A stretch of 64,000 nt of DNA from an uncultured Rhodospirillaceae bacterium (GTDB lineage: Bacteria > Pseudomonadota > Alphaproteobacteria > Rhodospirillales > Magnetospirillaceae), in contig CAIUSV010000044.1 of NCBI GenBank assembly GCA_903901915.1, forward strand, positions 1 through 64,000, written 5' to 3'. Positions 12,622 to 23,576 of this stretch are shown piece after piece. The notes beneath the pieces were generated by a model that was given only the letters and a program-made list of their open reading frames with translations, did not search any database and was not told the origin of the DNA. How positions within the stretch are numbered: the stretch's first letter is position 1; each line of letters begins with the position of its first letter. The translations under genes were made by a program, and so were the position numbers.

Positions 12622-14967
12622 TTACGAAAGCCGGCGCAGTTCGCTCGCCATCTCCTCCAGCAGGGCCAGCACTTCGTGCGAGGCGCCGTTCAGGCGATCG
12701 ACCTCGGCCAGAGCCTCGGTGGTGTCACCGTGGGCGTGAAGTTCCAGCGCCACCCTGCCGTGGGCGTGGACCCGCTGATGAGGATCGAGCAATCGGCCAT
12801 AGGCCGGCAGACGGGTCAGACGGTCATCCTTGAGCGTATCGTACCACTTGCCCAATCGGCAGGTATGATGATCGGTCAGTTGGCCGGACGTCAGCGCGTT
12901 GCGCCCCATGATCCGATCGAGAATGGAACGCTTGAACCGAATATGGTCGTTCTTGGCGACCTGAAGCAACGTCTCGGCGGTACCGAGCTTGGCGAACTCC
13001 TCCGCCCTACCGTCAAGAACGTCGGCCGCATTGGTCATGGCCTTAAGAACTTCGGATATTTCGTCCAGATTCTCATGCGCCAACGCGGCGATATCACCGG
13101 TGGCCGAAGACACTTCGGCCGCAGCCGAATTCTGCTGGTTAAGGATTTCCGAAATTTCCCGCATGCGCTCGGTAACGCCGTCGATACGTCCGGCGATAAT
13201 ACCCAGACCATCGGTGACCTGCGCCACCGCCGCCGTCCCTTCCTCCGCCGCCCCGCGCGAGCGGACCATGGAGTCCCGGGCGCCATTCATGTCGGAAATC
13301 AACCCGCCGATGCGTTCGCGAATGTCCACGGTGGCCTTGGCGGTCTGGTTGGCGAGATGTTTGACCTCGTTGGCGACCACGGCGAAGCCCTTGCCGGCCT
13401 CGCCGGCCCGCGCCGCCTCGATGGTGGCGTTGAGCGCCAGCAGGTTGGTCTGTCCGGCGATATCCTCGATCTGGTCGATGATGGTGGCGATCAGGTCCGA
13501 GGTCTTGCCCAATGCCTCGATCTTGTCTCCCACTTCGGCGACCGCCTGCATCAGGGCGGTCATGACCCGTTGGGCGGTTTCGGTCGCCGCCACGCCATCC
13601 CGTGCGGCCACTTCGGCGTTGTATGCCTCGTCGGCGGCGATGGCCGAGGACTGGGAAATGGTATCGACCGAGGCCACCATTTCCTCGATGGCGCTGGCGA
13701 TGGATTGGGTCTGTTCGGCCGAACGGCGCACCGAAACCATCATCCGGGCCAGGACCACGCCGGCCTCGTTGCTTTGGACGGCGGCTTCAACCACGCCTTC
13801 CAACTGAAGTTGCATGCCGTCCTGAAGTGCCTTATGCCCGGTTTCCAGTTCCGCGACGCTACGCTGCTGCGCCGCCTCCAACTCGGCAGTGCGCTGGACT
13901 TCCCGCTTGACCACTTCGACGGCCCGCGCCATGTACCCGATTTCGTCGGCGCGCTCGAGACCGGCGATCTCCACGTCGAAGTCGCGTCTGGCGATGCGGT
14001 CCAAGGCGCCGCTCATGGCCAGAACCGGCCGGGTGATGGCGCGGCCGAGCCAAGCGCCAAGCGCGGCGGCAAGCACCAGTGCGCCAAGCACCAGCCCCCA
14101 CATGATCCGATGCACTTCGGCCAGTTGGCCGCCGTAGAGGCTGGCGTCCATGGCGATTTCCGCGACCCCCAGCGGCTTGCCGCTATAATCGGCGACCACC
14201 CGTCCCAACACGGCGATCCTGCCGCCCTTGCCGTCCTCCATCGCCTTGATCACGTCCCGCCCCGCCAGGGCGGCGGCAATCTCGGACGACTCGAGGTTGG
14301 ATGTCGGCAAGGTTCCGGCAAACATCTTGAAGCCGTCCTTGCCTGGGACATGCAACACCACATCGACGCCATAGGATTTCTTGAAATCATTGAAAAAGGG
14401 CTGCCCGAAACTCATGCCGAATTCAATCGATCCCACATGCCGGCCTTCGTCGAACAGCGGCGTCAGCCCGCGCACCCCCAGACCGGCGACGCCGTATTCC
14501 AACCCCTTGGTCGGCTTCTGCGTGGCATTGGTCTGAACCACGGTCTGGCGAATGGCCGACAGGTCGTCACCGAATTTGGCCGGAGCGTGCGCCCGCAGGA
14601 ACGAAGTGGCCGGCGGAGTATGAAACTGGAACTGCTCGATGCCGAAAGTGGCCGCCATCGCCTTGAACGGTGGCAGCATCTGGGCCGCCAGCTGATCACG
14701 TTGTCCGGTAGCGACCAGATGGGATACCCCCGGAAGATTGGCCACCAGAACCGCCAGGGCGCTGGCCTCATCGGCCGCCCCCGAGATCGCGGCAGCCAAC
14801 TGCTCGAATCGCCCGACAAGCTCGCGGTGTTCCGCCTGCTCGATCAGCGAGACGGCATGGCGGTTGGCGACCCACCCCATGAACGCGGCGGTTCCCACCG
14901 ACATGGCGATCAGGGCGGTTCCAAATCGAGCGGCGATTCCAATGGCCATATCTTTGCGAGCCTTCAT
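12622..14967 (-). CDS. Methyl-accepting chemotaxis protein with Cache sensor and C-terminal CZB domain
   Basis: A 781-residue chemoreceptor. Layout: membrane helix 8-33, periplasmic double-Cache-like sensor (about 34-287, with GVRGLTPLF and [14 protein letters not shown]), second membrane helix 288-308, HAMP (about 309-362), signalling domain with the conserved hairpin tip ([22 protein letters not shown]) and a C-terminal chemoreceptor zinc-binding (CZB) domain from about 680. CZB ligands are visible: His in KNDHIRFK, Cys in HTCRLGKWY and two His in [11 protein letters not shown] domains bind zinc and can sense hypochlorite or zinc in other bacteria. A second possible start, Met7, cannot be excluded. 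Convergent with the pilin-like gene. Confidence 0.93.
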
Positions 14968-15153: not shown

Positions 15154-15849
15154 CTAATCGCCATCGGATATCAATTCCAACGCCTGCGCATCGCGGCGGA
15201 AGATATTGCTGGCGACTTCGACAATCACCCGCCTCTTCTTGAAATCGGACACCACCCGGCAAGCCGTCTCGGTGGTGATCCCCAGCAGCGCCCCGACGTC
15301 GTCGCGGCCGAACAGGCGGCAATGTTCGACCGAAGACGGCGCCAGCAACAAGAACAGCCGCGCCATCCGCTGCCGGGCGCTGCCGGTGGACAGCTCGCGC
15401 ATGCATTGATGCGATCGCTGCACCATGGCATGCCACTTTTCCATCAGCTGCCGATTGAGTTTCGGCGATAGCTTCGCCACCACGTCCCTGGGCAGACGGC
15501 AGACCTTGGTGGGCAGCAGCGCAACGGCGGTATGCTCGTAGTGAGGCGATACCGTGGCCTCCAGGCCGGCGACATCGCCCTGGCCGACAAGACTGACGAT
15601 GCGATAACCGCCGTCCGCCAGATATTGCTCCAGTTTGATCAACCCCTCCCGCACGGTAAACAGCGCGGAAGCCGGCTGCTCTTGTTGATAGAGCGCGGTC
15701 CCGGGAGGCAGCCAAATGTCTTCAATGGGAAGATGAACGCTATTGAAATCGTCGCTGGTAAGATCGGCGAAAAGAACCAAATGTCGAATGGCGCATTTTT
15801 CGCAGGTCTCCAAACCATACCAAGCCGCTTGAATCTCAGTCTCGCGCAT
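15154..15849 (-). CDS. Crp/Fnr-family transcription regulator, FNR-like with incomplete cysteine set
   Basis: A 231-residue regulator: N-terminal cysteine region, cyclic-nucleotide-type beta barrel (about 40-130), dimer helix and a C-terminal winged helix (about 165-225). I prefer ATG 15849 over the upstream TTG 15906, which lies inside the operator. Compared with E. coli FNR, C16-x2-C19 matches C20/C23 and C117 in KVCRLP matches C122, but the position of FNR C29 is V25. So three of four cluster ligands align. The recognition helix reads TETACR where FNR has VETISR: E and R are kept and S becomes C. Divergent from the tandem-CZB / Mms6-like unit, which it may control. Confidence 0.85.
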   Translation of the reverse strand: MRETEIQAAWYGLETCEKCAIRHLVLFADLTSDDFNSVHLPIEDIWLPPGTALYQQEQPASALFTVREGLIKLEQYLADGGYRIVSLVGQGDVAGLEATVSPHYEHTAVALLPTKVCRLPRDVVAKLSPKLNRQLMEKWHAMVQRSHQCMRELSTGSARQRMARLFLLLAPSSVEHCRLFGRDDVGALLGITTETACRVVSDFKKRRVIVEVASNIFRRDAQALELISDGD

Positions 15850-15897
15850 TGCCTGGATACCTTTATCAGACACAAAACATACCGGATATCCATCATC

Positions 15898-15915
15898 CAC
15901 TGACAATTGTCAGTG
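15898..15915. promoter_or_regulatory. 18-bp perfect palindrome, candidate FNR-family operator
   Basis: CACTGACAATTGTCAGTG is a perfect palindrome in the gap between the FNR-like gene and the tandem-CZB gene. Its core TGAC-N4-GTCA has the layout of CRP/FNR-family sites (FNR: TTGAT-N4-ATCAA; NnrR-like sites often have GTCAA). It lies 49 nt before the regulator's ATG and 95 nt before the CZB start, so it can serve both promoters. Binding by the adjacent regulator is inference. Confidence 0.65.
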
Positions 15916-16009
15916 ATGACCTGCCGCGTCGCCGCCTATACAGACAACACTCCCGGCGCCGGATTACCACGCGCCGCCCCGATGTCTTCGCACCCAAGGA
16001 CGACGCAAG

Positions 16010-16861
16010 ATGACCGCTGTCGAACTCGACGTCAACGCCGCTCGGCTTGCCCATCTTCGCTGGGAAACCGCTCTTGAGGCGTTGGTGAACGGCAGCCGCA
16101 CCGACACGCCGCTGCAGGGGCACGAGGATTGTGACCTGGGCACCTGGATCTACGGCACCGGTCTCAGCCGCTATGGCAAATTGGGGGCGGTCTGGCAGTT
16201 GAAGACCGCGCACAAGCGCTTTCACCACGTCGCCGAAGAGATCCTGGCCGCCCTGGCCGCTGGCGAACAGAAACGCGCCGTGGATCTGCTGGACGCGGTC
16301 CGGCGGTTGAGCGGAGAAATTCTCTTCCTGCTGACGTCGCTGGAGTTGGATGTGATCGAAGCGGCAATCAACGCCACGCGAGCCAAGGACATTCCATCCC
16401 GGCTGCTACGGGCGCTGTTTCCTCGCCCCACCCCCATCGACATCATCTCGATCCAGAGCCTGGGCGAAGCCGGCAGTGGCCGCCATAGCCTCAACGTTAC
16501 CGGCGCCCGCCTCGCCCACCTGAAATGGATACGCGATCTGCAATGGGCATTTCGCGGCCACGGCAAAACCATGTGCGCCCAACCCAGTGATGAATGCAGC
16601 CTGGGAATCTGGATACACGGAACGGCGATGAAGGAACTGGGGGCCACCGAAATTCTGAGGGCGCTTGATGTATCCCACAAGAAATTCCATCGTGAAGTCG
16701 ACATAGTACTGTCCTCACTAAAACATGGAAAGTACAAAAGTGCGGACGAATCCTATGAAGAGGCATTGGTGTTGAGCGGAGAAATTATAACCATCCTGAC
16801 ACGCCTCCAACTTGAACTTACAGACTCCAACGTCCTGTCCGCTCAGACCTCAAAGCTCTAA
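16010..16861 (+). CDS. Stand-alone tandem CZB (chemoreceptor zinc-binding) protein
   Basis: A 283-residue soluble, helical protein made of two CZB-like repeats and almost nothing else. Repeat 1 (about 10-130) has AHLRW, DCDLGTWI and AHKRFHH; repeat 2 (about 165-275) has AHLKW, ECSLGIWI and SHKKFHR. Each keeps the His, Cys and His-x-x-x-His ligand pattern of CZB domains, so two metal sites are expected. CZB domains are usually appended to chemoreceptors, GGDEF or PAS proteins; two in tandem without partner domains is unusual. The 3' third of the gene is AT-richer than its start. The Mms6-like gene follows after 24 nt on the same strand, so they probably form an operon behind the FNR-type palindrome. 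Confidence 0.85.
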   Translation: MTAVELDVNAARLAHLRWETALEALVNGSRTDTPLQGHEDCDLGTWIYGTGLSRYGKLGAVWQLKTAHKRFHHVAEEILAALAAGEQKRAVDLLDAVRRLSGEILFLLTSLELDVIEAAINATRAKDIPSRLLRALFPRPTPIDIISIQSLGEAGSGRHSLNVTGARLAHLKWIRDLQWAFRGHGKTMCAQPSDECSLGIWIHGTAMKELGATEILRALDVSHKKFHREVDIVLSSLKHGKYKSADESYEEALVLSGEIITILTRLQLELTDSNVLSAQTSKL

Positions 16862-16885
16862 CGCCATACTCACGGAGACGGCGCC

Positions 16886-17332
16886 ATGCCCATGCGATTG
16901 CATTCACCTTTCGGCCCAACCTGCCTTCAGGGCACGGGAACCGCGACGCCGGCAACGGCGGGGGGAGCCGTCACCTGTCCCCAGACCGGGGGATCACTGA
17001 CCGCCAAAGGATTGGGCCTTAAGGCTGGCGCGGGAGCCGGGAGCGGCCTGGGACTTGGCCCCTGCGGCACCGGCACCGTCGGCAAGACGGCTCTGGGCGC
17101 CAAGGGGGCGTTGGGAGCCAAGGGAGCCACCGCCGTAGCCTGGAGCGTCGGGGGCGGCGCGGCCACCGGCCACGGCTTCAGCCTCGGCCTCGGTCTGGGC
17201 TTGGGGGCATGGGGGCCGGTCCTGTTGGGGGCCGGGGTCGTGGCGCTGGGTTACTACCTCTACGCCAACCGGGATCGCCGGCCGGTCCCGAAGGATGAGC
17301 TGGCATCCGCCCTTGAAGACATCAACCGCTGA
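16886..17332 (+). CDS. Mms6/MamD/MamG-like magnetosome-type membrane protein
   Basis: A 148-residue protein; ATG 16886 has GGAG eight bases upstream. Residues 1-97 are low-complexity and rich in Gly, Ala, Thr and Lys (for example GAKGALGAKGA), with Cys at 13, 31 and 60. Residues 99-108 form an alternating Leu-Gly run leading into G-A-W-G-P-V-L-L-G and one membrane helix (to about 126). A charged tail of 22 residues (with KDELASALEDI) follows. This order, an A/G/T/K-rich region, an LG repeat with AWGP, a membrane helix and a charged tail, is that of Mms6, MamD and MamG, which sit in the magnetosome membrane and shape magnetite crystals. The tail is less acidic than that of Mms6. No known mam/mms cluster gene is in view. 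Confidence 0.8.
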   Translation: MPMRLHSPFGPTCLQGTGTATPATAGGAVTCPQTGGSLTAKGLGLKAGAGAGSGLGLGPCGTGTVGKTALGAKGALGAKGATAVAWSVGGGAATGHGFSLGLGLGLGAWGPVLLGAGVVALGYYLYANRDRRPVPKDELASALEDINR

Positions 17333-20300: not shown

Positions 20301-20698
20301 CGATCTCCGACGTAAAGCCCCTGGCTGACGGTGTCGGAGGAATAGGCCACATGCCCGGTCGGATCGACAACCAGGACCAGATTGACCGAGCCCGACGGAA
20401 GACTTCTAATAATATGAGCGGCTTCGCGGTTGGCCTCCGCTTCTCCCTGGGCCAGCGCTTCTCGCAGATGGAACAACGCCATTTCCACAAGGCGGATCAG
20501 CGCGACGGTATGCTGGCTGATCGAATCAGCCAGCTGCTTGGCCCGCAGATCATTGCGCGCCATGGCTTCGGTCAACAGCCGCTCCTGGACCCTGGCGGAA
20601 TCGACCGTATAGAAAAAGCCGAACGCCGCGCTCAACACGATGATGGCCACCGCCATCGCCGAGAGAAGAGGAACGCGAATCCGCATGGGGCTAGACAT
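17360..20698 (-). CDS. Hybrid sensor histidine kinase (Cache-PAS-PAS-HK-REC-HPt)
   Basis: A 1112-residue membrane kinase. Order: membrane helix 12-33, Cache-type periplasmic sensor (about 40-285, with [10 protein letters not shown]), membrane helix about 293-312, two PAS domains (about 325-440 and 445-565), dimerisation/H-box [13 protein letters not shown] (about 597), ATPase domain ([21 protein letters not shown]), receiver with [13 protein letters not shown] (about 855-975) and a C-terminal HPt domain with [12 protein letters not shown]. All phosphorelay residues are present. The section encoding the second PAS and the H-box (about 18760-19450) is clearly AT-richer than the rest, suggesting domain exchange. 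A response regulator partner is not obvious; it lies between the Mms6-like and hemerythrin-PilZ genes, the latter overlapping by 8 nt. Confidence 0.93.
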
Positions 20699-21425
20699 CG
20701 TCCCCGGAGACTACGGCGCCATCCGCCTTCGCCGTCGTGTTCAGGACATGATGGATCATGGCGCGGGTCTGGCCGTATTCCTCGGGAGCGAATTTTATGA
20801 TAAGGCAGTCGCCATCGGCCCGCTCCACGGTGCCGGTCGTCTCGATCCTCTGGCTCTCCAGCAGGGCCCCCCTGATCCTGGGAATAAGCCCGATCGCCAC
20901 GGAAGCGACGGACGGAACCAGCGTTGTCCGCAGCGTCATCGAGTCGACCGAAATGTCGACCACGTCCACCATTGCCCCACCGATATCGGCCTTGATGCCC
21001 TGGCCGGTAAGACGGGGAAACTTCCGGCGCTCCAATTCCTTGACGTGCTGGGCGACGGCCCGATCGTGACTGAACAGATCGACGACGATTTCGACCAACC
21101 GCTCTTTCAGGGCCTGGCGCATGGCGGCGATATCCGCTTCGTCGCAGACGAGGTGCCGCAACCCCTCGATGCGCGACTCCGCCTTTCTATGGGCGGCAAG
21201 ATGCTTGGCCTTGGAAGACAGATCATCCTCGGGAAACAGTTTTTCCTCGTCGGCGAAGTGAATGGTCGACAATTCCTGAAATTCCATCACCGCGGTCTGT
21301 GCCGCTTCGACATAGCCCTCATCGACGGCGAGACTCAGGCCCGAGAGCAGCTGCATCAGCTGCCTATGCTGGTCGTCGAGCCGCGTGTTGCCGACGGACA
21401 TGGACTCGTGCCAACTGAACCGCAT
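20691..21425 (-). CDS. Hemerythrin-PilZ fusion protein
   Basis: A 244-residue soluble protein preceded by AGGAGAG. Residues 1-130 are a bacteriohemerythrin domain: [18 protein letters not shown] and HLAAH supply His/Glu ligands, but the last motif reads [10 protein letters not shown] where the family has H-x4-D, so the bridging Asp appears to be replaced by Ala. Residues 131-235 look like a PilZ domain beginning ERRKFPRL (RxxxR kept), followed by DISVDS where D/N-x-S-x-x-G is usual. The protein could link oxygen or redox state to cyclic-di-GMP. It follows the hemerythrin chemoreceptor by 15 nt and overlaps the hybrid kinase start, so the three are likely co-transcribed. Confidence 0.8.
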
Positions 21426-21440
21426 GGCAGGTCTCTCCTG

Positions 21441-23576
21441 TTAACGGGCCTGGCCCATTGATGGAACGGCCCCTTTTGCCTTGCGGGCAAGATGGGCGGC
21501 AAAATCGATATCGGTTTTCTGGATATGAACCAGCAGCCAGTCCTTGAGGAATTGCAGGACCTTGAGCGAAACGGTGCCGCTTCGCATCTCCAGCTGCTTC
21601 TGAAACTCCTCGACCTTGGCGATGAAGCCGGCATGCGCCTGCATATGGGCATCGAAGCCCGGATAGGTGGCCCGGTCCATCTGCGCCTGCTCGCGGGCGA
21701 AGTGCTCGCGGGTATAGGAGATCAGGTTGGCCACCACCCGCTCGATCGCCTCCGAACCCTGGCCGCCCAGCATGGCGGTGTGCAGGTCGTTCACATAGGC
21801 GATCAATCTTCGGTGATCGCCGTCGATCATCGCGTTGCCGGTGACCAGACTGTCGGACCAGGCAAAGAAGCCGCCTTCTTCCTCGACCGAAGCATCACTG
21901 ATGCTCGACAGGAACCCGTGAACATCCTCTCTCAGCTTGGTCGCCCGCGCTCCCAACGCCGTCGCCGCCACCGAAACGTCGCGGGCGGCCGTATCAACGC
22001 CCTTGGCGCCATCCAGAACCTCCGAGGCGCTGTTCGAGACCTCGGCGGTTCTTTGCGACGCCGCCTGTACGCTCCGCGAAATCTCGTCGGTGGCCGCCGA
22101 CTGTTGCTCGACGGCGGCGGCAATGGACGCCGAAATCTGGCTGACCTCCTCGATGGTGGCGGTGATCCCCCGCAATGCGCTAACGGCATTGTCGGTAGCC
22201 ACCTGCACCTCGGAGATCTGATCGGCGATGCTGCCGGTGGCCTTGGTGGTCTGCGCCGCGAGTTGCTTGACCTCGCTGGCGACCACGGCGAAGCCCTTGC
22301 CGGCTTCGCCCGCCCGGGCCGCCTCGATGGTGGCGTTCAGCGCCAACAGGTTGGTCTGGGACGCTATGTCGTTGATCAGGTTGACCACGTCGCCGATCCG
22401 CTGGACCGCCGCGGCAAGCCCCTGGACCAGGACATCGGTCCTCGCCGCCTCCTCGGTGCCCGAGTGGGACACTTGGCTGGCCAGCGATACCTGCCGGGCG
22501 ATTTCCTGAATCGACGCCGACAGTTCCTCGGCGGCGGAGGCGACGGTCTGAACATTGCCCGAGGCCATGTCCGAAGCCACCGCCATCGCGTTCGCCCGTC
22601 CCGACACCAGTTCCGCCACCTCGGCCATGGACTGCGCCGACTTCTCCAAGGTCACCACGGAATGAACCAGTTCCGTCACCGTCGCGCTGGCAATGCCGTC
22701 AAACTCGGTGGTGATCTCCTCGATACGCTCGGCCCGCTTCTCGCGCGCCGCCTTGTCCGACTGGATTTTCTCGCTGATGGTGCGGCGCTCTCGCTCGCCT
22801 GCCCGCCACACCTCGATGGCGGAAGCCATGGCCCCGATTTCGTCACTGCGGCCGACTCCCGGGATGGCGACATCGAGTTTACCCGCCGCCAGACTGCCCA
22901 TGGTTCCCGTGATGCCGCCTAACGGCAGGGTGATGGAACGGGCAACGGCGATGGCGCCGACGCAGGCAAGAACCGACCCGATGGCGGCAAAAATAAGGGC
23001 GGCGGCCTTGTACCAGCCATCGCTGGCGTCCGCCTCCTTCTCGGTCGCCTTGATCAAACGGTCGGACTTGATCACCAGCGCATCGATCGCCGAGCGATGA
23101 ATTTCGTAGGCTGCGGTCATATCGCGGAACGCCGTTTCGGCCGCCGCCCGATCACCGCGCCCAAGGGCGGGGAACAACGCTTTTTCGCTCAGATCAAAAA
23201 AGCGAATCGCCGGCCCATATGACGTGTCGAGAAGAAGTGTGCGAATATCGGCATCGACATTGGCGCTCGACCAGAACGCGTGACGATCGTCATAGTCCGA
23301 TCGAAGCCGCCGCATCTTCTCGATGTATATTTTATAATCTTCGGCAGGCGCCGTTATGGCTTTCGATGCCGTCAGGTATGATTCGATGATGTATTCCGGC
23401 GGCGGCAAAATGTCCGCCACCAGATCCTTTTCCTGGGAAATCTTGTTATAGATCGGACCATTGACCTTCAACGTATTGAGGGCCACCCACCAGCCTGCGG
23501 ACACGCAGGAGATGGCCAGGGGAAAGAGCGTGGCAAGCACAAGAAGCTTACCTTTGATTGTCAAACTCATAATCAA
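21441..23576 (-). CDS. Methyl-accepting chemotaxis protein with C-terminal hemerythrin domain
   Basis: A 711-residue chemoreceptor (start Met1 or Met3). Layout: membrane helix 9-30, helical periplasmic sensor (about 31-188), membrane helix 190-212, HAMP (about 213-265), signalling domain with [22 protein letters not shown], and a hemerythrin domain from about 570. The hemerythrin ligands are complete: DGDH, HFAREQ, HMQAH and HIQKTDID. DcrH of Desulfovibrio has the same arrangement and acts in oxygen taxis, so aerotaxis is a reasonable inference. First gene of the probable MCP, hemerythrin-PilZ, hybrid-kinase unit read leftward. Confidence 0.93.

Follow-up and report, generated by a model that had tools for sequence, protein, structure and literature searches.

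The locus at positions 15154-17332 of the window (the whole 64-kb stretch of DNA that was analysed) raised the question of whether a CRP/FNR-type regulator, a protein with two CZB domains and a protein with an LG motif belong to one conserved unit, and whether this unit takes part in magnetosome formation. The earlier note had described an FNR-like regulator divergent from a tandem-CZB gene and an Mms6-like gene. It had suggested oxygen- or metal-controlled biomineralisation or metal storage.

Gene arrangement and synteny

All three open reading frames were present. The regulator gene occupied 15154-15849 on the minus strand and was divergent from a pair of plus-strand genes. These were the tandem-CZB gene (16010-16861, 283 aa), whose product had no transducer domain, and the gene for the LG-motif protein (16886-17332, 148 aa), which was related to the C-terminal part of MamD, Mms6 and MamG. 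The stop codon of the CZB gene ended at 16861 and the ATG of the LG gene was at 16886, leaving a gap of 24 nt. The perfect 18-bp palindrome CACTGACAATTGTCAGTG was located at 15898-15915, and its core CTGAC-N4-GTCAG made it an FNR-box-like candidate operator. The reading frames, the divergent arrangement, the palindrome and the gap were all confirmed. For the regulator gene, the ATG start at 15849 was preferred to the TTG start at 15906, which was the first reading. The TTG start would place the palindrome inside the regulator gene, and the orthologs started at the residue matching ATG 15849.

Downstream of the regulator gene, at a distance of about 187 bp and in the same orientation, was a gene for a dCache_3-HAMP-MCP-CZB chemoreceptor (12622-14967, minus strand). 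Shared signalling or read-through between these two genes is possible. At 20691-23576 (minus strand), a hemerythrin-domain protein of 244 aa adjoined a chemoreceptor-like protein, and the C-terminal part of the latter resembled hemerythrin-like ORFs near magnetosome genes elsewhere.

For the comparison, genomes G021, G043, G039 and G044 were taken to be MSR-1, XM-1, AMB-1 and ME-1, respectively. G030 was UT-4, G048 was SS-4, G037 was P. kuznetsovii LBB-42 and G022 was M. moscoviense BB-1; G000 was the window genome and G031 an uncultured Rhodospirillaceae MAG. Full-length orthologs of the tandem-CZB protein with 66-80% identity were found in ten other genomes of the family, and the BB-1 copy was broken. 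The outcome that would speak against a conserved unit, namely no other genome carrying the trio, had been set beforehand. The synteny check found the three genes together in XM-1, G040, G008 and G041 besides the window, with a truncated LG gene in G041. The regulator gene was divergent beside the tandem-CZB gene in G041, XM-1, G040 and G031. In the case of G008, the genes were rearranged to the order CZB-LG-regulator on one strand, with the linkage kept. The LG gene followed the tandem-CZB gene in XM-1, MSR-1, G040, UT-4, G038 (with a frameshift or an assembly error), SS-4 and G008, and it was absent in G031 and LBB-42. The conserved three-gene unit was confirmed, and a chance arrangement was ruled out by the synteny together with the conserved operator.

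In MSR-1, homology to XM-1 reached only the first 12 codons of the regulator, a remnant of 36 nt. In UT-4, homology ended just before the regulator start codon. These breakpoints suggested that the regulator was probably lost from the MSR-1 and UT-4 lineages, and the remnant indicated that the divergon was present earlier in the MSR-1 line. The cassette was absent from the MamK-encoding genomes that are apparently AMB-1 and ME-1. In the G041 LG gene, an in-frame deletion removed the whole membrane segment (L091:2465-2659). In BB-1, the CZB and LG genes were both broken, and feoAB beside them looked intact (L100:8673-9089). The G038 contig CACVCF010000279.1 (L148) carried a Magnetospirillum-type island, and its genome grouped with the genus of the window genome. 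Its title, 'Terasakiella sp. PR1', looks misassigned.

Linkage to magnetosome genes

Of the 297 genomes sampled from the order, 16 had the full-length tandem-CZB protein (E <= 1e-30), and all 16 were among the 35 genomes that encode MamK. A naive Fisher test gave p = 3.5e-17, a value to be read with the genomes as non-independent draws because island genes share ancestry. The association with MamK is partly phylogenetic in origin. The tandem-CZB genomes spanned five families, and 5 of the 16 came from four families other than that of the window. In G070 and G090, which belong to another family, the LG gene was located directly upstream of the tandem-CZB gene on the same strand, the reverse of the window order. 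Among 385 genomes sampled across the class, the window genome was the sole match for the tandem-CZB protein, and no case was found outside the order.

The CZB-LG pair was divergent beside feoAB in MSR-1 (feoAB1), G038 and BB-1. In XM-1, the regulator was followed by an OprB-type porin, FeoA and FeoB. In G038 and SS-4, the pair was upstream of a MamX gene and an FtsZ-family gene, and the MamX of G038 scored above the NCBIfam cut-off. The magnetosome-island setting was indicated by these feoAB and mamX/ftsZ neighbours in MSR-1, G038, BB-1 and SS-4, and by the limit of the tandem-CZB gene to MamK-bearing genomes among the 297 sampled. The biomineralisation link of the earlier note was backed by this context, that is, by the MamK-bearing genomes and the magnetosome ferrous-iron transporter. 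According to Uebe et al. 2018 (PMC5920173), the older MSR-1 assembly had put a transposase-flanked block of about 10 kb with feoAB1 and mmxF at the opposite island end. Since G021 is apparently this older assembly, its long-range order is unsafe and its local order is fine.

The window genome carried MamK and mamAB (contigs C77 and C21) and mms6- and mamGFDC-type genes (C21 and C11), and was therefore regarded as a magnetosome-type genome. The cassette was on C44, where mam genes were absent. The genome yielded no FeoB1-type gene, and its sole FeoB match was 56% identical to FeoB1. The gene for this FeoB was at G000:C44:94059-96140, on the cassette's own contig and outside the window.

MSR-1 mutants with a deleted island form magnetosomes again when they receive a cassette of five operons, namely feoAB1, mms6, mamGFDC, mamAB and mamXY (PMC7908775). 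Any role of the CZB-LG pair is therefore accessory. The pair shares an island region with the MSR-1 mms5op and feoAB1op, which likewise involve an LG protein and ferrous-iron transport. However, in the literature found, it was listed neither in mms5op nor in any of the five described operons. This is a real, conserved and apparently undescribed accessory magnetosome cassette. The claim that no such system had been described agreed with the literature, where the cassette is apparently missing.

The regulator and its candidate operator

The regulator matched Pfam cNMP_binding (1e-13) and HTH_Crp_2 (1.6e-7). PF00027, PF13545 and PF00325 were above their gathering scores, which placed the protein in the CRP/FNR superfamily. 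Of the four cysteines of the FNR cluster, three were kept. The equivalents of C20, C23 and C122 were Cys, and that of C29 was Val in 26 of 26 subfamily members. A canonical FNR with a 4Fe-4S sensor (C20, C23, C29 and C122 in E. coli) was rejected by this four-cysteine test. The ligands of MgFnr are C25, C28, C37 and C125 (PMC4065386). The position matching MgFnr C37, with +9 spacing from C28, was Ala here and not Cys. The residues at the C29 and C37 positions gave no support to redox sensing by an FNR-type cluster. Non-Cys fourth ligands occur in other Fnr proteins, such as that of B. subtilis, so it is possible that the regulator would hold an Fe-S cluster in this way.

The regulator resembled FNR and MgFnr in the CRP/FNR fold, the CxxC motif, the C122 equivalent, the E-x-x-(S/C)-R helix and the FNR-box-like 5-4-5 site. 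However, it had no third N-terminal cysteine, and in its recognition helix ETACR the FNR Ser212 was replaced by Cys. All regulators of the cassette clade (100/100 support) had Cys at this position, in contrast to Ser in 18 of 18 paralogs. The replacement may fit a changed operator preference of the cassette clade, which it does not prove. Paralogs linked to ccoG, a cbb3 oxidase accessory gene, were found at AMB-1-like, XM-1, LBB-42 and MSR-1 loci (profile test: AMB-1-like locus). These regulators of Magnetospirillum-type genomes belonged to the same subfamily, with 50-70% identity and the identical three cysteines. In contrast to the cassette regulators, they adjoined ccoG without a CZB or LG partner, had Ser in the recognition helix and fell outside the supported cassette clade. 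The exception was P. kuznetsovii LBB-42, where a cassette-clade regulator was at the ccoG locus. Since the paralogs adjoin ccoG, there is a hint that microoxic respiration was the original setting of the regulator family. No FNR-type boxes were found next to the regulator or ccoG at the ccoG-linked paralog loci.

The palindrome was the longest perfect one in the window. Alone it was weak evidence, because with equal base frequencies chance would yield about 0.24 perfect palindromes of this length. Its core was kept in 12 of 12 CZB-bearing genomes of the family and was the best-conserved non-coding stretch. The palindrome centre preceded the start codon of the CZB gene by 103 nt and that of the regulator gene by about 57 nt. 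The upstream regions shared TGACAAwTGTCAGTG, followed by TATACA or TATATA at 29-30 nt from the centre, and the remaining region had diverged. This distance from the centre to TATAnA was observed in 11 of 12 genomes. It was 30 nt in the window, where TATACA at 15937-15942 (plus strand) was, judging from conservation, the likely -10 element of the CZB promoter. In G008, the operator was present and the -10 match was shifted. FNR and CRP act as class II activators from about -41.5. If the -10 hexamer starts at -12, the operator centre is predicted at about -41.5 to -42.5, likely the class II activator position. The half-sites CTGAC-N4-GTCAG differed from the FNR box TTGAT-N4-ATCAA at the two outermost bases.

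The 14-mer YTGACAWWTGTCAR was found in one copy, at the cassette, in nearly every cassette-bearing genome, and the reversed control gave 0. The exceptions were UT-4, with one extra copy, and G031 and G008, with a variant in which the outer base was changed. G049, which has no cassette, had one copy elsewhere. The 14-mer was not found in the AMB-1-like and ME-1-like genomes, both without the cassette. A wider regulon in the window genome was rejected, since CTGACAATTGTCAG with up to two mismatches matched only 4 places, a number close to that of the reversed-pattern control. The palindrome was kept in MSR-1, UT-4, G038, SS-4 and BB-1 without an adjacent regulator. In the case of G038 and SS-4, no member of the regulator subfamily was found at E <= 1e-20. 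Since the palindrome outlasts the loss of the regulator, the latter is a presumed partner of this site. The single regulatory unit of the earlier note stood as a conserved arrangement, and control by the regulator stayed a presumption.

The two proteins and their possible role

The tandem-CZB protein matched Pfam CZB (7.5e-19) in two stretches of one ORF. Both domains carried the 3His/1Cys zinc-ligand set (H15 C41 H68 H72 and H170 C196 H223 H227), which was invariant in 15 homologs from five families. The AlphaFold model had two helical bundles and a low-confidence linker at 123-160, with a mean pLDDT of 72. At the domain level, it best matched DosC MID with a TMt of 0.77 and the CZB of DgcZ with a TMt of 0.62. 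The fold search gave CZB-type domains at probability 0.90-1.0 with poor E-values, and the sequence search among solved structures gave no relative. The DgcZ CZB acts as a homodimer, so the tandem protein would by analogy be a covalent CZB pseudo-dimer. It shared the CZB fold and the 3His/1Cys ligands with CZB-only proteins, DgcZ and the TlpD/McpA sensors. However, it had two CZB domains per chain, no GGDEF or MCP output and a magnetosome context. CZB-only architectures are already known (PMC8262984), and the sensing of HOCl and zinc by CZB and aerotaxis via McpA were reported (PMC8262984, preprint PMC13370339). In our literature search, no description of a tandem CZB architecture and no work joining magnetosome and CZB were found. 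Both the CZB and LG genes were under purifying selection, with dN/dS of about 0.09-0.23 in unsaturated pairs.

A second CZB-only gene was observed in the MSR-1 island. It encoded a single CZB of 117 aa (L131:15255-15608, G021:C1:2474254-2474607) near a FieF-type CDF transporter gene, and relatives of 119 aa were present in other MamK-bearing genomes. In G078 (L160), the tandem-CZB gene was near a CDF gene 51% identical to that of MSR-1.

The LG protein matched the NCBIfam models of MamD (46.6 bits, 2.7e-12), Mms6 (35.8 bits, 8.5e-9) and MamG (32.5 bits, 7.6e-8), all under the curated equivalog cut-offs of 200 bits for Mms6 and 100 bits for MamD and MamG. Assignments to canonical Mms6 and to the MamD or MamG family were rejected. 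The seven LG proteins scanned all matched the three models, and the Mms6 scores of the homologs were 23-32 bits. The best match covered MamD positions 228-313 of 318, which is only the C-terminal glycine-rich part. A single hydrophobic segment was located at residues ~102-122, and the tail KDELASALEDI was short and weakly acidic by sequence. The acidic DEEVE-type tail of the canonical Mms6 of the window genome was absent. The cassette LG proteins shared the C-terminal LG-rich hydrophobic segment with Mms6, MamD, MamG and Mms5. However, they scored 20-49 bits against cut-offs of 100-200 and had a CZB operon partner. This meant that 'Mms6-like' was correct as kinship and not as membership. For the C-terminal glycine-rich domains of MamD and Mms5, targeting to the magnetosome membrane depends on MamF-like proteins (PMC11628618). 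By analogy, the LG protein may also be located in this membrane.

The best explanation was an accessory redox-gated magnetosome cassette, which we hold with as much doubt as confidence. The FNR-clade regulator, or another FNR-type protein in some strains, would bind CTGAC-N4-GTCAG near -41.5 and activate the CZB-LG operon in class II fashion, and the regulator would probably control its own gene too. The glycine-rich C-terminal helix of the LG protein would bring it into the magnetosome membrane, as in the case of MamD and Mms5. The soluble tandem-CZB protein would bind two Zn and shift its state with cellular zinc or oxidants. As oxygen varies, the two proteins might adjust the iron loading of magnetosomes or the growth of crystals, or might protect this step. 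Magnetosomes form only at low oxygen and with ample iron. The redox tie of the core magnetosome genes is disputed, and a claim of 2024 on their redox control by NsrR (PMC11014258) was contradicted in 2026 (PMC12774639). The CZB-LG pair is conserved, apparently unstudied, has a clear candidate operator and is located beside feoAB1 in the model organism MSR-1. Being small and directly testable, it offers a way into the oxygen-dependent tuning of biomineralisation. If the proposal is true, organelle mineralisation would join chemotaxis and c-di-GMP signalling among the processes in which the CZB family acts.

A dedicated redox/zinc module was considered possible and is put forward tentatively. 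In several alphaproteobacterial lineages, the soluble tandem-CZB protein and the LG membrane protein would make the iron loading of magnetosomes depend on the cellular redox or zinc state, and in some strains their own CRP/FNR-clade regulator would act through a near single-target operator. It is somewhat unlikely that the operator instead serves a global FNR-type regulator such as MgFnr. The cassette would then be part of a general low-oxygen regulon, and the divergent regulator would be a lineage-specific takeover or would mainly control other genes. The five genomes that kept the site without an adjacent regulator (MSR-1, UT-4, G038, SS-4 and BB-1) were consistent with a global regulator. 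So were the P. kuznetsovii cassette-clade regulator, located at ccoG, and the resemblance of CTGA-N6-TCAG to TTGA-N6-TCAA of MgFnr targets (PMC4065386). However, the motif was near-unique per genome and absent in the cassette-less AMB-1-like and ME-1-like genomes, the Ser-to-Cys change marked the cassette-clade regulators, and the MSR-1 remnant indicated an older divergon there.

The remaining alternatives concerned what the two proteins do. The CZB protein could dock to receptor arrays or CZB receptors and adjust swimming to redox, serving magneto-aerotaxis and not mineral formation. CZB domains occur mostly in chemoreceptors and steer taxis, including toward O2 (PMC8262984, PMC13370339), and the receptor gene at 12622-14967 is the next gene after the regulator, in the same orientation. 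We regard this as unlikely; in two families the CZB gene shares its operon with a gene for a magnetosome-type LG protein, and the neighbours elsewhere are feoAB and mamXYZ, with no receptors. The metal storage suggested in the earlier note was dropped, as no supporting feature was found. A role in metal hygiene, where the tandem CZB buffers or reports zinc and keeps the wrong metal out of the iron transporters and magnetite, is rather doubtful. The very tight zinc site of the DgcZ CZB is a sensor and no store (PMC8262984), and two sites per protein would give little buffering unless the protein were highly expressed. Points that agreed with metal hygiene were the complete Zn-ligand sets of both domains, the FeoB linkage and, in MSR-1 and G078, the vicinity of CZB-only genes to those of FieF-type CDF efflux proteins. 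Finally, the pair could be hitchhiking in the island, retained through linkage and with no current function in magnetosomes. In several strains genes were lost, truncated or frameshifted, and the island is rich in mobile elements (PMC5920173); both points spoke for this reading, to which we give little probability. Both genes had dN/dS of about 0.1-0.2, the operator was conserved between diverged flanks, and the genes were retained in five families and, in the window genome, apart from the known mam genes.
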